Shown: positions 19,291 through 59,825 of the stretch, piece by piece | Position numbering within the stretch: the stretch's first letter is position 1 | How the letters are laid out: the number at the start of each line of letters is the position of its first letter | From: Desulfoscipio gibsoniae DSM 7213 | Lineage (GTDB): Bacteria; Bacillota; Desulfotomaculia; Desulfotomaculales; Desulfallaceae | Reading direction: 5' to 3' | DNA: 64,000 nucleotides | Assembly (NCBI RefSeq): GCF_000233715.2 | Contig: NC_021184.1 | Location: 4,274,001-4,338,000, forward strand | Made by a program: the position numbers and the translations under genes | The notes under the pieces: generated by a model | Seen by the model: the letters and a program-made list of their open reading frames with translations, nothing else | Told to the model about the DNA's origin: nothing | Databases searched by the model: none

Positions 19291-19596
19291 TTAAAGATCC
19301 TCCCCAAGCACTTCCAGGGCAAGTTCCCGAATCCTTTTTTTGGATTCAAGTAAAACATTGTTGCCTTCTTCGGTAATGCTATAGTATTTTCTTATTTTTC
19401 CTTCCACATTCACCTTCTCGGATACCAGGAGACCGCTTTGTTCTAGTTTTTGCAGGATGGGATACATGGTCCCGGGGCTTACGTGGTAACCGTGGCTTTC
19501 AAGCTCTTCAATTAATTCCAACCCATAAACCGGACTTAGCGAAGCATGATAAAGAATATGCACCCGAATAAAACCCAAAAAAATATCTCTTAACAA
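19291..19596 (-). CDS. PadR-family transcriptional regulator
   Basis: 101 residues: a winged helix with YGLELIEELESHGYHVSPGTMYPILQKLEQSGLL and a short C-terminal helix. It starts at TTG (GAGGTGG upstream), which is unusual but matched by an almost identical start at 29.16 kb. It is the first gene of the fet operon and presumably represses it through the palindrome 16 bp upstream. The copper, iron or drug signal is unknown. Confidence 0.9.
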   Translation of the reverse strand: MLRDIFLGFIRVHILYHASLSPVYGLELIEELESHGYHVSPGTMYPILQKLEQSGLLVSEKVNVEGKIRKYYSITEEGNNVLLESKKRIRELALEVLGEDL

Positions 19597-19611: not shown

Positions 19612-19626
19612 TATCGCGAGGCGATA
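19612..19626. promoter_or_regulatory. palindromic operator in front of padR-fetAB
   Basis: TATCGC-GAG-GCGATA, a perfect 6-bp inverted repeat just upstream of the padR ribosome-binding site and inside the likely promoter region. An equivalent site (TATCGC-AAA-GCGATA) lies in the duplicated sequence at 29183-29197, supporting a function as PadR binding site. Confidence 0.6.
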
Positions 19627-19689
19627 TCGGTTTTAATTATTATTATCATATACTAATAGATTTTGCAAGATAAAATAAATAAAAGAAAT

Positions 19690-19940
19690 CTACGTTGACC
19701 AAAGTGTTATGTTATTACTGCGTAAGTAATTCAAAATGCAAAATGGACTTCCCAAAAACCAATGCGGCAACCCCCCTAATGCAAAGTTGGACGAAGGTTC
19801 GTATCGTACCCCAAATTAATAATGGCCTTAAAAGGCCTAGTATTTTCTTATCTTTCCTTCCACCATTAACCTTCAGCGCCAATCATCAGCAGCCCCTTCT
19901 AGATCAAAGGCTAGCCCTGCCTGAGGATTAGTTAGTTTTA
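19690..19940. other. rearranged fragments of fetB, padR and another locus
   Basis: A patchwork: 19722-19784 matches 59765-59825; 19785-19837 matches an internal part of fetB (18489-18535); 19838-19873 matches an internal part of padR (19382-19415). The end, read on the minus strand, gives ATIPLGTPNGLKLTNPQAG and then a stop, a piece of an unidentified gene. All fragments are too short to be functional. Confidence 0.65.
19722..19784 (+). repeat. 63-bp dispersed repeat, copy 1
   Basis: GTAAGTAATTCAAAATGCAA at the start and AATGCGGCAACC near the end, nearly identical to 59765-59825 with one 2-bp indel and one C/T difference. Confidence 0.85.
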
Positions 19941-19999
19941 GTCCGTTAGGGGTACCTAGTGGAATGGTTGCAGTCCTTGGTACTAAACAGCCGGGAATA

Positions 20000-20038
20000 A
20001 AGAAAAAAGAAGCCACTTGCTTAGTAGTGACTTCTTTT
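20000..20038. terminator. bidirectional terminator
   Basis: AAAAAAGAAGCCACT pairs with AGTGACTTCTTTT across an 8-nt loop; one mismatch. It lies just behind the selenoprotein gene (minus strand) and probably ends the lactate permease-selenoprotein transcript. Confidence 0.7.
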
Positions 20039-20046
20039 CGCTCTAT

Positions 20047-20301
20047 TTACTTTTTCCCCAGCTTTTGAGCCACAACTATTTCCAGCTCTTCCTGATTTGC
20101 GTTTTTACCTAATTCCACATCATCACAAATAAATTGGGGATTAATGCCGTCATCTCCTTTATTACCCAGACCCATGAATCCTTTGTAAATAACTTCTACC
20201 TTTACAACATCAGAACCAAACTTTTCACTGGCCGCACCGGCCATTTTAGAAAGACCGGCTCAGCAGGGGCCTGCAGAACGGTTTGAGTATACTTTGATGT
20301 T
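20047..20301 (-). CDS. small thioredoxin-fold selenoprotein (CU motif), start codon not recognisable
   Basis: Reading on the minus strand from about 20301 gives NIKVYSNRSAGPCUAGLSKM, with UGA at 20262-20260 directly after a Cys, and 65 more codons to TAA. The Cys-Sec pair after the first beta strand is a redox motif, and the downstream sequence aligns with the selenoprotein at 35936 (VEVIYK against VEVIYP). An inverted CCGG...CCGG right after the UGA could serve as the bacterial SECIS. No ATG, GTG, TTG or CTG exists between the UGA and the preceding in-frame stop; the frame starts 2 bp behind the permease stop. Either the 5' end was lost or an ATA/ATC start with translational coupling is used. 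Confidence 0.65.
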
Positions 20302-20302
20302 G

Positions 20303-22057
20303 CTAAAAAATATGAAGTTGTATCATGGCTAAAGCGCCAAGCAACAAAGCGAAAATAATGCTGATACCAAAGACCCGGCGTAGTAATTCTCCTTCAATTC
20401 CCGGCTTATTTAATGTTGCACTAGCAATAACCAGGTCCTGAAAAGCTATAGCTTTACCCATTGTGCCACCAGAAGCCAGCGTTCCGGCCGAAAAGACCGG
20501 GTCGATGCCCAACTGCGCTCCACTAACCACCGAAAGGTTGCCAAACAAAGCGTTGGAAGCTGCAACACTACCTGCCAGCGTACATCCCAGCATACCCATC
20601 AAGGCAACGGCCACTGGAAAGAGAAAACCGGTAGCAGCAAAAGCAAGACCAATGGTGTAGGTCATAGCGGCATAATTCATAAGATAAGCAATGCCTAAAA
20701 TACAGATAATGGTAACGCCCGGCAGCAGTAAATTTTTTAGTGTGGAAACGTAAATTTGCGCTGCTTTGGACGGTTTTATACCCAGGACAAAAACTGAAAT
20801 AATTCCCGCAAAGAATACCAGAGAACCACCAACTACCAGTAGGGGTTGGCTGTAAACAGCCGCGTATGGCTCCGGCTGCGGAACAACGGGCGCTAACTTC
20901 CAAACCGCATTATGAAGCCCCGCCCATTCAAAATTAACGGTACTAATCTGGGTCAGCCATTTTTTCATCGGAGTACCGGTTACTAACCCGATAACGGCAA
21001 TTAACAGTAAGTACGGTGACCAGGCCCGGATAATCTGCCCTGTAGGTAATTTTTCTTCCGCCTTGTCTTGGATATCGGTATTCTTTTCACCTGGAAATAG
21101 CCAGGTGTTCTTAGGGCGCCAAAACCGTAAAAAGATAAGTATAGTTAAAATAGATGCCAGGGAAGCTGAAATACCTACAATATAGGGACCTGATTTGGAT
21201 GCCAGCATACCGACAACAGCATAACTGAATCCAACGGCAAAGGTTAACGGCCAGATTTCTTTAAAACCTTTCCAACCCGCAATTAATATTACCAGGGCAA
21301 TAGGGAAGAAGGCTGTAAGTATGGGCGCCTGCATCCCGGACATGGCCGAAAGTTCATTGATGTCCAAACCAGTCACTGAGTTCAAGACTACTACAGGCAT
21401 ACCCTGAGTACCCCACACGCTTGGCGTGGTATCGGATAGGAGTGCCACCGTGGCGGCAGTTAGAGGGGGGAATCCAAATCCAAGCAGCATAGCCGTTACA
21501 ATGGCTATGGGCGCACCAAAAGCCGCTATACCCTCCAATAGCGTAGTAAAACCAAAGCCCACCAGCAATGTTTGTATCCGACGATCTTTACTAACATAGC
21601 CCAGCGAACTTTTAACAATTTCAAAATAACCGCTTTCTACAGTCATATTAAATATCCATACCGCACTGGACAGTGTCCATAAAATGGGAAATACCGCCAT
21701 CAGCATCCCCATTAAGGTACTATTAAAAGCAAGCCCAACCGGCATTTTCCATACCCCAATAGCCACTAGTAATGTTGCCAGCAGGGAAATTATTGCTGAA
21801 ACGTGAGCCGGCTTTTTCAAACCGCCTAGCAAGAGGAACATTGAAAGAATAGGGGTACCCGCCAGTAAGGCTGATAGATACAGATTATCTCCTATCGGGG
21901 TATAGTTTTGCACCCATTTAATAGTCTCGGTGGAGAATAAACCGCCAGGCAGCCATGCTGTTATTAAAAAAACCAGAAAAAAGCAGGCTGCCACTGCTGG
22001 CCGCACCCAGTTTCTTGGTTCGGGGTGTATTTGCTGTTCCTTTCTTTGTTGCTTCAT
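20303..22057 (-). CDS. L-lactate permease (LctP/LldP) family transporter
   Basis: 584 residues with about 14 membrane segments and family blocks such as GFGFTTLLEGIAAFGAPIAI, ALLSDTTPSVWGTQG and the C-terminal GCTLAGSVAASNALFGNLSV. Family members import lactate or glycolate with protons. I use ATG 22057 (GGAGG 8 nt upstream). It is downstream of the SLC13 permease and sulfotransferase on the same strand, so the real substrate here could be another short hydroxy or sulfonated acid. Its stop codon lies against the selenoprotein frame. Confidence 0.85.
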   Translation of the reverse strand: MKQQRKEQQIHPEPRNWVRPAVAACFFLVFLITAWLPGGLFSTETIKWVQNYTPIGDNLYLSALLAGTPILSMFLLLGGLKKPAHVSAIISLLATLLVAIGVWKMPVGLAFNSTLMGMLMAVFPILWTLSSAVWIFNMTVESGYFEIVKSSLGYVSKDRRIQTLLVGFGFTTLLEGIAAFGAPIAIVTAMLLGFGFPPLTAATVALLSDTTPSVWGTQGMPVVVLNSVTGLDINELSAMSGMQAPILTAFFPIALVILIAGWKGFKEIWPLTFAVGFSYAVVGMLASKSGPYIVGISASLASILTILIFLRFWRPKNTWLFPGEKNTDIQDKAEEKLPTGQIIRAWSPYLLLIAVIGLVTGTPMKKWLTQISTVNFEWAGLHNAVWKLAPVVPQPEPYAAVYSQPLLVVGGSLVFFAGIISVFVLGIKPSKAAQIYVSTLKNLLLPGVTIICILGIAYLMNYAAMTYTIGLAFAATGFLFPVAVALMGMLGCTLAGSVAASNALFGNLSVVSGAQLGIDPVFSAGTLASGGTMGKAIAFQDLVIASATLNKPGIEGELLRRVFGISIIFALLLGALAMIQLHIF

Positions 22058-22234
22058 GCACGTCACCTCCAGTTTAAAAAATATTGCCCGATAGCTGTAG
22101 TAGACTTTCGGGCAGAAAACAAACCTTTCTAAATTATAAAGAACTATGATGAATGGTAAGAGAAGAGTTGTAATTAGTTAATTGATTTTTTAAACAGTTT
22201 TGTAATAAATAAAGTTTATATCCGCTATAAGTGT

Positions 22235-29129: not shown

Positions 29130-29230
29130 TGTTTTAAATGACCTTTAAAAAAATATCTCTTAGCAATTCAATCTACCTCCTCTATCGCAAAGCGATATCG
29201 GTCTTAATAATTATTATCATATACTTAAAG
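29130..29230 (-). repeat. duplicate of the padR promoter, operator and first codons
   Basis: Nearly identical to 19578-19660: the AT-rich promoter stretch, the palindrome TATCGC-AAA-GCGATA at 29183-29197, a GAGGAGG ribosome-binding site and the start TTG CTA AGA GAT ATT TTT, coding for MLRDIF as in PadR. After about nine codons the frame stops. Only the control region and the first codons of a second padR copy survive. Confidence 0.75.
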
Positions 29231-32807: not shown

Positions 32808-33065
32808 ATGGTTAAAATGGTTGTTTTTCACAGCGGGAATCCAAATTGAAAAAGCTGCCAAATGGCTATAGGTATAGCCAAAAAAATGAAGGAAAAATTC
32901 GGTGACAAAATTGAACTAAACATTTATCAAAATGATTCAGAGGAGGCAAAGGGTTATACTCTGTTATCATCTACCAATGTGTTTGTAAATGATCAATTAA
33001 TTTCCAGGGAAATAGCTTTGGATAAAGAAAACATGTACGACTTCCTTAATAACATCATAAACTAG
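32808..33065 (+). CDS. glutaredoxin/thioredoxin-like selenoprotein with UxxC motif
   Basis: ATG behind AAAGGAGG gives MVKMVVFHSGNPNUKSCQMA with UGA at 32847-32849, and 71 further codons to TAG (85 residues in all). U-K-S-C stands exactly where thioredoxin-fold proteins have CxxC, after the first strand; the later TNVFVNDQLIS corresponds to the strand before the substrate groove. Directly after the UGA, GGCTATAGGTATAGCC can fold into a short stem, a plausible bacterial SECIS. It probably acts as a small thiol-disulfide or selenosulfide oxidoreductase. A terminator follows at 33100. Confidence 0.8.
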
Positions 33066-33319: not shown

Positions 33320-34558
33320 TTAAACCTTAACTACAGAGTACCCGTGCCTTCGAGCTATAAGAATAGCTAGTTCTACTGTGATTTCACGAGATGCGGGTAT
33401 GAGTTGCGTTTTCTTATAAAGCTCGGGGTTGTAAGGTTCACCATTCTTAAGGATGTGATAAATAGCAGTAAGCAACATTCGTGCAATAGCTATAATAGCA
33501 CGCTTATGGCCACGCCGCTTTTTAATGGATAAATAGCGGCCCTTGATTTCAGGGTGTTTATCACTTTTAACAACAGCGTTGGCGCACTGTACTAAAAGTG
33601 GTTTGATATAAACACCGGCACGAGAAATGCGTACAGAATGTTTTTTGCCCGCACTCTCGTTGTTTTGAGGAGTCACCCCTGCCCAAGAACACAAGTGTTT
33701 GGCTGTAGGGAACACAGACATATCAACCCCGATTTCTGAGATTATAGCGATAGCAGAAAAAGGATTTTTGATACCTGGTACAGTAGACACTAAGTCACGT
33801 TCCTTGGCATAAGGCTCCGACAGCGAAAGGATTAAGGATTCAAGATTGGACTTGCATTTTTCCAATCCGTTGTAATGCTGAAGGATAATATTTATTTTCC
33901 GCTGTTGCTCGAGTGTAATCATCCCGTCTAAAGCAAGGCGGATCTTATCCACCTTACCCAGCATAGATGCGTGAAGAAGAGGAACAAAATCGAAATCCTT
34001 ATCATCAGGATTTTCAAGCAAGTAGTCAATGATTCTCATTGAACTCTTACCGAAAGTATCAGACACCACATTGGCAAGTTGGATATTTGATACAGTAAGA
34101 CAATTTTGAATCCGGTTCTTCTCGCTGGACTTAAAGTTTGTGAGCTTAAAACGGTAACGCATTAAGTCACGCAATTGACGAATTGGAAGGGGCGGCATAA
34201 AGCTTCCGGCAACGAGGTCGTGCTTAAACAGGTCAGCAATCCACTTGGCATCCTTTTTATCAGTTTTTTTGCCGCGAATCGCCTTGACGTACTTTGGGTG
34301 GGCCAGGGTGATTTTACAGGTGGCTTCCAAAATATTGTACACAGGTATCCAATACTTGCCGGTGGATTCCATGCAAACGTCTGTGCAGGAATTAGAGGTA
34401 AGCCACTCTGACAGCTTTCGCAAATCGTTAGTGAAGGTAGAAAAACGATGGGATTTGTAAGTGGTAATCCCTTTGTCGTTGGTAAAGGCAATACAGGCAA
34501 TAAGAAACTTTTTATGGACATCAATTCCACAACAGATTGGGTAAACAATTTTTAACAT
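33320..34558 (-). CDS. IS110-family transposase (DEDD recombinase)
   Basis: 412 residues from ATG 34558 (GGGAGA upstream). The N-terminal RuvC-like domain shows GIDVHKKFLIACI, CMESTGKYWIPV, then KTDKKDAKWIADLF, giving the DEDD tetrad. The C-terminal Tnp_2 domain has VSTVPGIKNPFSAIAIISEI, LCSWAGVTPQNNESAGK and the serine-containing region. By current knowledge it acts with an RNA encoded in an element end. Confidence 0.92.
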   Translation of the reverse strand: MLKIVYPICCGIDVHKKFLIACIAFTNDKGITTYKSHRFSTFTNDLRKLSEWLTSNSCTDVCMESTGKYWIPVYNILEATCKITLAHPKYVKAIRGKKTDKKDAKWIADLFKHDLVAGSFMPPLPIRQLRDLMRYRFKLTNFKSSEKNRIQNCLTVSNIQLANVVSDTFGKSSMRIIDYLLENPDDKDFDFVPLLHASMLGKVDKIRLALDGMITLEQQRKINIILQHYNGLEKCKSNLESLILSLSEPYAKERDLVSTVPGIKNPFSAIAIISEIGVDMSVFPTAKHLCSWAGVTPQNNESAGKKHSVRISRAGVYIKPLLVQCANAVVKSDKHPEIKGRYLSIKKRRGHKRAIIAIARMLLTAIYHILKNGEPYNPELYKKTQLIPASREITVELAILIARRHGYSVVKV

Positions 34559-34605
34559 CAAAGTCTCCCTTCGCAAAAGATTATTGAGAGAAGCAGGCAT
34601 TGACT

Positions 34606-34859: not shown

Positions 34860-35909
34860 ATGAAGAATCAATCGTTAAACGTCAAACTTACATCTTACTC
34901 ACCGGGTTCGGGGTGAGCATGCAAGATAGGTCCTGCGGACCTGGCGCAAGTTCTGCGCTGCCTACCCCCGGTGAGAGACCCCAATGTCCTGGCCGGTCGG
35001 GATGATAACGCTGCGGTATACAAGCTTAATGATGAATTGGCCATGATCCAAACCATTGACTATATCACCCCGGTGGTCGACAACCCCTACCAGTTCGGGA
35101 TGATTGCCGCGGCCAACGCTCTCAGCGACATATACGCTATGGGCGGCAGGCCGGTGACCGCCCTGAATATCATCGGGTTTCCCAACCAGAGCCTGCCCCT
35201 GTCCATTATGGAGGACATCATTAGAGGCGGGGCGGATAAAGCCGCCGAAGCCGACGTCACCATCGTCGGCGGGCATTCCATTACCGACAGCGCCCCAAAG
35301 TACGGCCTGGCGGTTACCGGTTTTGTGGATCCGGGCCGGATGGTGGGAAAAAACGGTGCCAAACCGGGAGACCGGTTGATTCTTACCAAGCCGCTGGGTG
35401 TTGGGGTAATTACCACCGGTATAGACCATAAGCTGGTGCATGAAGACCAAGTGGTAAGAGTTACGGATATTATGCTGACACTGAACCGGCGGGCTTCGGA
35501 GATTATGTTGGAGGTCGAGGTCAATGCCTGTACCGACGTGACGGGGTACGGACTGCTGGGGCACCTACGGGAAATAGCCGTCGCCAGCGGGGTAGGGGCC
35601 CGGGTTAACGCATCCACGGTGCCCGTGCTTCCGGAAACGGAAAAGTTGGTCCGAGCCGGCGCGGTGCCCGGGGGCACCCACAACAACTACCGCTATCTTC
35701 GTGACATGGTGCAGTGGGACCCGGCACTGTCAAGTGAGATGAGGCTGATTCTTTGCGATCCGCAAACCTCCGGCGGTTTATTGATGGTTGTGTCCCGGGA
35801 AAATGTGGACCGCCTGCTAGCCGCTTTGCGCAAAGACCCGGAAGTGGTACTGGCGGAGGAAATAGGAGAAATAGTAAGCGACCCCGGGTTTATCAATGTC
35901 ATTGCCTAA
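34860..35909 (+). CDS. selD: selenide, water dikinase SelD, itself a selenoprotein
   Basis: It makes selenophosphate from selenide and ATP, the selenium donor for Sec-tRNA. ATG 34860 begins MKNQSLNVKLTSYSPGSGUACKIGPADL; the UGA at 34914-34916 encodes Sec at the catalytic Cys/Sec position (residue 19), one residue apart from the Cys-Lys that follows. A 6-bp stem AGGTCC-TGC-GGACCT at 34928-34942 fits a SECIS. RDDNAAVYKL, TVVDNPYQFG, GGHSITD and DVTGYGLLGHL belong to the ATP/metal sites. 349 residues, full length. The selenoprotein at 35936 is 26 bp downstream, so the two form one operon. Confidence 0.93.
34928..34942 (+). promoter_or_regulatory. putative bacterial SECIS of selD
   Basis: Perfect hairpin AGGTCC-TGC-GGACCT starting 12 nt after the UGA, the position expected for SelB binding. 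Confidence 0.6.
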
Positions 35910-35935: not shown

Positions 35936-36172
35936 ATGATTAAGATTACTGTTTACTCCAATACACCCGCCGGCAAAGGTTGACAGGGCTTAATAGCCCT
36001 GGCCGGGGAAGTCAGGGGAAAATACCCGCAGCAGGTGGAAGTGGAAGTGATATACCCTTCGCAGCTGCCCGGGGTTAAAAACCTGCCTAAGGCACCTGCT
36101 ATTGCCGTGAGTAGTAAAGTTTTTGATAAAAATGCCACTTTTGATGATATTGAGAAAGAACTTAACGTCTGA
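35936..36172 (+). CDS. small thioredoxin-fold selenoprotein, GU motif
   Basis: AAAGGAGG precedes ATG 35936. The product MIKITVYSNTPAGKGUQGLI has UGA as codon 16 (35981-35983) and continues to a second UGA at 36170-36172, giving 78 residues. Immediately after the first UGA, CAGGGCT-TAAT-AGCCCTG forms a 7-bp SECIS-like stem; the terminal UGA has no such stem. It aligns with the protein at 20047 (VYSN, then AG-x-x-U-x-GL, VEVIY), but lacks the Cys before Sec. Part of the selD operon; probably a redox or selenium-handling protein. Confidence 0.8.
35984..36001 (+). promoter_or_regulatory. putative bacterial SECIS
   Basis: CAGGGCT-TAAT-AGCCCTG, a 7-bp perfect stem beginning at the base after the UGA of the selenoprotein at 35936. 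Confidence 0.6.
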
Positions 36173-59764: not shown

Positions 59765-59825
59765 GTAAGTAATTCAAAATGCAAAATGGACTTCCCAAAC
59801 CAATGCGGCAACCCTCCTAATGCAA
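59765..59825 (+). repeat. 61-bp dispersed repeat, copy 2
   Basis: Near-identical to 19722-19784; the last bases overlap the stop codon of the PEP-enzyme gene. Confidence 0.85.

Follow-up and report, generated by a model that had tools for sequence, protein, structure and literature searches.

A TsoC-like selenoprotein gene of Desulfotomaculum gibsoniae, probably untranslated, truncated at the stop codon of a lactate permease gene

How could a selenoprotein be made from a reading frame that has no start codon? This question is raised by a frame within the 64,000 nucleotides analyzed here (the window), which belong to the genome of Desulfotomaculum gibsoniae, a single contig of 4,855,529 bases. 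On the minus strand, a specification missing from the earlier note on this DNA, positions 20322–20047 are open except for one in-frame TGA (20262–20260). With this codon read as selenocysteine (Sec), the frame from 20316 to 20047 translates to FIFFSNIKVYSNRSAGPC-U-AGLSKMAGAASEKFG...QKLGKK and ends with the stop codon TAA at 20049–20047. The nearest in-frame stop upstream is TGA 20325–20323, and none of the 20 codons between this stop and the Sec codon is ATG, GTG, TTG, or CTG. The earlier note had reported this absence correctly, as well as the contact between the frame and the stop codon of a lactate permease gene (TAG, 20305–20303, minus strand). The open frame extends a few codons into the permease; behind the permease stop it reads SNIKVYSNRSAGPC-U-AGLSKMAGAASEKFGSDVVKVEVIYKGFMGLGNKGDDGINPQFICDDVELGKNANQEELEIVVAQKLGKK. 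Since 20302 is the first base past this stop, and AAC at 20301 the first codon entirely past it, the distance is 1 bp rather than the 2 bp given before. Twenty random codons lack all four start triplets with a chance of about 27% (60/64 per codon). The absence of a start codon is therefore not rare by base frequencies, and the case has to rest on comparison with related genes.

Judged from sequence, the truncated frame (20047–20301, minus strand, NIKVYSNRSAGPCUAGLSKMAG...QKLGKK) derives from a real selenoprotein gene. Homologues are present in about 15 other genomes, and all of them share the TGA position and have a bSECIS-like hairpin. Within the order they were found in 13 other genomes, with further ones added by profile search; a phylum-wide sample of 398 genomes contributed one additional homologue (G115), and a scan of genome contigs gave six loci, mostly in genomes that were already found. 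The TGA position is identical in every homologue of this family, which we call TsoC-like for reasons given below. Matches without TGA, from the genus of the window and one other genome, came up by profile search only and with low scores. The truncated copy is 76% identical to the intact copy in genome G059. About 16 nt behind the UGA (approximately 20228–20243, minus strand) the window copy contains the hairpin UGGCC-GGUGC-GGCCA (−9.4 kcal/mol), and nearly all homologues have a GG-loop hairpin at +16 to +40 behind the TGA, in which base pairs are preserved by compensating changes (window, UGGCC/GGCCA; G059, UGGCC/GGUCA; others, UUUGGCC/GGUCAAA). Because the folding z-score of this region by itself is weak (−1.5), the support from the hairpin comes from its conservation. 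Together with the Sec machinery of the genome (SelB above cutoff, tRNA-Sec at 67.9 bits, SelD within the window), the conserved TGA and the bSECIS hairpin with a G in its apical loop bear out the earlier description of the frame as a selenoprotein. The window protein alone gave zero matches to Pfam and NCBIfam, and the only Rfam match in the window was a T-box located elsewhere.

What sets the window copy apart from its relatives is the 5′ end. All 18 compared homologues have ATG, GTG, or TTG exactly three codons ahead of a conserved Ile, and the sequences before these starts pair with the anti-Shine–Dalgarno (anti-SD) sequence at −8.6 to −16.8 kcal/mol. The comparison with related genomes that the earlier note had recommended turned up intact copies. 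At the homologous position the window copy reads TTT with an anti-SD pairing of +0.2 kcal/mol, and it is the sole sequence lacking both the start codon and the ribosome-binding site expected of a bacterial selenoprotein gene. It also lacks the first residues that are common to all 18 homologues.

The cause of this loss may be read from the permease side of the junction. The LctP-family lactate permease (20303–22066, minus strand) is intact, matches PF02652 (1.5e-123) and TIGR00795 (above cutoff), and is 86–87% conserved in genomes G010 and G012, where it forms part of a sulfotransferase-CitT-LctP block conserved at 85–92%. Nothing TsoC-like was found behind lctP in either genome. Nucleotide homology to G012 stops at window position 20304, inside the permease stop codon, which places the junction at 20302–20305 (minus strand) between TA and G (G012 TTTTTTAA, window TTTTTTAG). 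The last Phe codon of the permease is shared: G012 reads TTTTTT and then AA, the window TTTTTT and then AG. Homology to the selenoprotein starts within one or two codons of this junction. With the permease match breaking off within its stop codon, the ribosome-binding site and the start codon appear to have been lost at a recombination or deletion junction. From comparison across genomes that include no intermediate, we infer a deletion at this point. An intact lctP-tsoC arrangement was found in none of the genomes compared, so that deletion beside an existing tsoC and arrival of an already truncated fragment leave the same picture. Of the deleted 5′ end proposed earlier, the loss is well supported by the missing signals, the junction within the stop codon, and the internal indels described next, but the choice of deletion over truncated arrival is not. 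Relatives were found neither on viral contigs nor on plasmids, and hence no transfer vehicle could be named.

The body of the gene is also damaged. Alignment with G059 shows two gaps, one of two bases and one of a single base, separated by about 16 bases (approximately 20120–20142, minus strand), and the frame between these compensated −2/−1 indels reads PQFIC (PQFICD) where relatives read PPNLFV (PPNLFVD), the most conserved loop; the next frame keeps PNLFV. A single-codon deletion as the origin of PQFICD was rejected with an alignment score of 20 versus 52 for two indels. The indel pair points to relaxed constraint. Apart from it, the frame stays open as far as its stop, with an intact SECIS-like hairpin, and outside the indel region dN/dS relative to G059 is about 0.09, which suggests that this tsoC copy was functional until recently and that any decay is recent. 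Thus, lost expression signals and disruptive changes relative to intact relatives, the marks of a pseudogene, are both found, in a frame that is still open because the indels compensate each other.

The explanation that we consider probable is that the frame is a recently truncated TsoC-like selenoprotein pseudogene of D. gibsoniae that is no longer translated. Our confidence stops there because compensation of the indels could reflect persisting selection on the frame. A deletion or illegitimate recombination would have joined lctP, at its 3′ end, to a codon inside tsoC. The permease would have been spared at this fusion because TA from one side and G from the other still make a stop codon. 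The truncated gene would still be transcribed with lctP up to an intrinsic terminator with a 14 bp stem and a T tract (20004–20039, minus strand), and ribosomes would find no initiation site on it. Loss of this copy may have been tolerated because a second, intact TsoC-like gene adjoins selD. The orphan frame would then be a gene beheaded at the stop codon of a transporter, and citing it for selenoprotein synthesis without a start codon would not be warranted.

It is unlikely that the truncated gene is still made, either by SD-less reinitiation on AUC or AUA or by a +1 slip on UUU-UAG. Translation by such a route would be a rare natural example either of coupled initiation at a non-AUG codon without an SD or of a frameshift that leads into a selenoprotein. 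Termination–reinitiation by lctP ribosomes at ATC 20298 or ATA 20313 would yield a nearly full-length selenoprotein. The codon aligned with the conserved Ile is this ATC, 4 nt past the permease stop. The junction sits exactly on this stop so that coupling is imaginable, and the intact frame, Sec codon, and SECIS-like hairpin together with the low dN/dS would fit a translated gene. However, no SD precedes either codon (anti-SD pairing +1.3 kcal/mol before ATC and +0.2 kcal/mol before ATA, both less favorable than the median of −2.1 kcal/mol for random 17-mers from the window), so that a start at ATA or ATC has no initiation signal, whereas every compared homologue starts at ATG, GTG, or TTG behind a strong SD. 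IF3 also excludes start codons with weak third-base pairs (PMC10158994). The scrambled PPNLFVD loop and the intact paralogue that makes this copy dispensable speak further against reinitiation, which we judge to be quite improbable. The coupling from ATA/ATC or reinitiation suggested in the earlier note is therefore conceivable, but the sequence does not back it.

A +1 frameshift at U-UUU-UAG-C in the last codons of lctP, in the same manner as the prfB shift, would instead fuse the permease to the selenoprotein domain. The offset between the two frames is indeed exactly +1, and re-pairing on UUU is possible before UAG C. Nevertheless, one random junction in three would give the +1 frame, an SD-like stimulator upstream is absent, and no permease-TsoC fusion was found among relatives. 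G012 already has the T6 run without tsoC behind it, which eliminates this run as a site selected for slippage. We consider such a fusion very unlikely. The proposal that an assembly or consensus error deleted the start region and created the internal indels draws on the use of 454 reads and on the position of the indels in or near short runs (CCCC, GG). The assembly combined 479× Illumina with 27× 454 coverage and was polished to a stated error rate below 1 in 100,000 (PMC4148979). An error would also have to remove the SD and the start completely and to place the join of two loci exactly on a stop codon. Assembly error is unlikely as the cause, and an error that accounts for both the lost start and the indels is hardly credible. 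Finally, a standard gene caller might give the existing ORF 20047–20244 as the product, a 65-residue frame from ATG 20244 (MAGAASEK...) behind the Sec codon, but this start is far-fetched given an anti-SD pairing of just −3.7 kcal/mol, an overlapping SECIS-like hairpin, and a product without Sec and without the first strand of the fold.

If the truncated gene is ordinary gene decay, as we find, then the family behind it is of moderate interest. TsoC occurs in a three-selenoprotein operon with TsoA and TsoB. Like TsoC (NF045708), the homologues are about 85 residues long and contain GxxU with Sec near the N-terminus (GPCU in the window copy), and this NCBIfam model is the best family match of nearly all of them (10 of the 11 aligned members). 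In contrast to the NEPxGxxU motif of TsoC, the homologues read YSNRPAGxxU. Their scores of 16.8–34.3 bits fall below the cutoff of 45, for which reason we call the family TsoC-like rather than TsoC; the startless window copy has no match. One paper (PMC13188914) lists TsoC as a GxxU protein with reference to Haft and Tolstoy 2025 and also describes the Tso operon. TsoX (NF045809) is comparable in size and several homologues match its profile weakly, but its motif is different (HSGNPxU) and the homologue scores stay below 15 bits against a cutoff of 52.

With regard to structure, comparison of an AlphaFold model of the intact homologue from G059 (pLDDT 80, pTM 0.69) with the PDB gave mostly thioredoxins, with TM-scores to the query of 0.5–0.7 and a best Foldseek E-value of only 3e-3; a profile match to 1nho was found at E 0.03. 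The thioredoxin fold is a beta-alpha-beta-beta-beta-alpha arrangement whose third strand is preceded by a conserved Pro. The modeled homologue conforms to this fold, in agreement with the earlier description of the frame as thioredoxin-like; the window copy keeps one Pro in the scrambled loop region. Unlike thioredoxins, the TsoC-like protein is shorter, has GxxU instead of CxxC, and lacks a Pfam match.

In four loci (L018 10060–15648, L019 3740–9432, L021 8848–14618, L115 6828–12405) the intact TsoC-like gene stands in its usual home, a full cluster in which a divergent LysR gene and then genes for SelD, a radical SAM protein, a methyltransferase, and a NapH-like ferredoxin membrane protein precede it. 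L020 contains the same cluster with neither LysR nor SelD seen, and L112, L113, and L114 have LysR, SelD, and TsoC-like genes without those for the radical SAM protein and the methyltransferase. This composition resembles TrsS/DVU_1556-type neighborhoods, but the best models score below their curated cutoffs (TrsS, 386 of 490 bits for the radical SAM protein; DVU_1556, 130 of 155 bits for the methyltransferase), and the partners do not adjoin the window copy. Among the G059 cluster proteins (L018) that were scanned against NCBIfam, only SelD is above cutoff. Because all but SelD fall below, current models miss this conserved cluster, and its GxxU selenoproteins are barely catalogued. The intact protein may serve as a thiol/selenol redox protein for the radical SAM, methyltransferase, and NapH-like components. 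The D. gibsoniae genome contains no close relative of the NapH-like partner, and its best match to the radical SAM protein is at 41%, which makes the copy behind lctP an orphan. Genome G043 contains at L119 (4981–6263) a LysR fragment, a selD with a frameshift, and a tsoC-like frame that lacks a clear start. This locus reads as another instance of decay, and the same genome has an intact copy at L040.

The window itself contains the LysR, SelD, and TsoC-like arrangement at 30.9–36.2 kb. The intact TsoC-like paralogue (35936–36172, plus strand), preceded by AAAGGAGG and starting with ATG, stands directly behind selD and 15.6 kb from the truncated copy. SelD (34860–35909, plus strand) is itself a selenoprotein (GSGUACKIGP, TGA at 34914), and a gene caller without Sec decoding puts its start behind the Sec codon. 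Farther upstream is a TsoX-type selenoprotein gene, intact as judged by its motif (32808–33065, plus strand; MVKMVVFHSGNPNUKSC...), also with AAAGGAGG and ATG and with the HSGNPxU motif that names NF045809. A gene for an IS110-family transposase (33320–34600, minus strand) separates tsoX from selD and interrupts the LysR-SelD neighborhood.

Beyond the terminator, the intergenic strip 19612–20000 is a patchwork of repeat copies, FetB-like and PadR-like fragments of neighboring genes, and a repeat shared with 59765–59825, which fits a region shaped by deletions. This last repeat, 63 bases long with 95% identity between copies 40 kb apart, occupies 19722–19784 beside the truncated gene. A palindromic TATCGC..GCGATA element is present at 19612–19654 and, with 91% identity, at 29183–29225; it is perhaps an operator of the PadR-like regulator encoded at 19291–19596.
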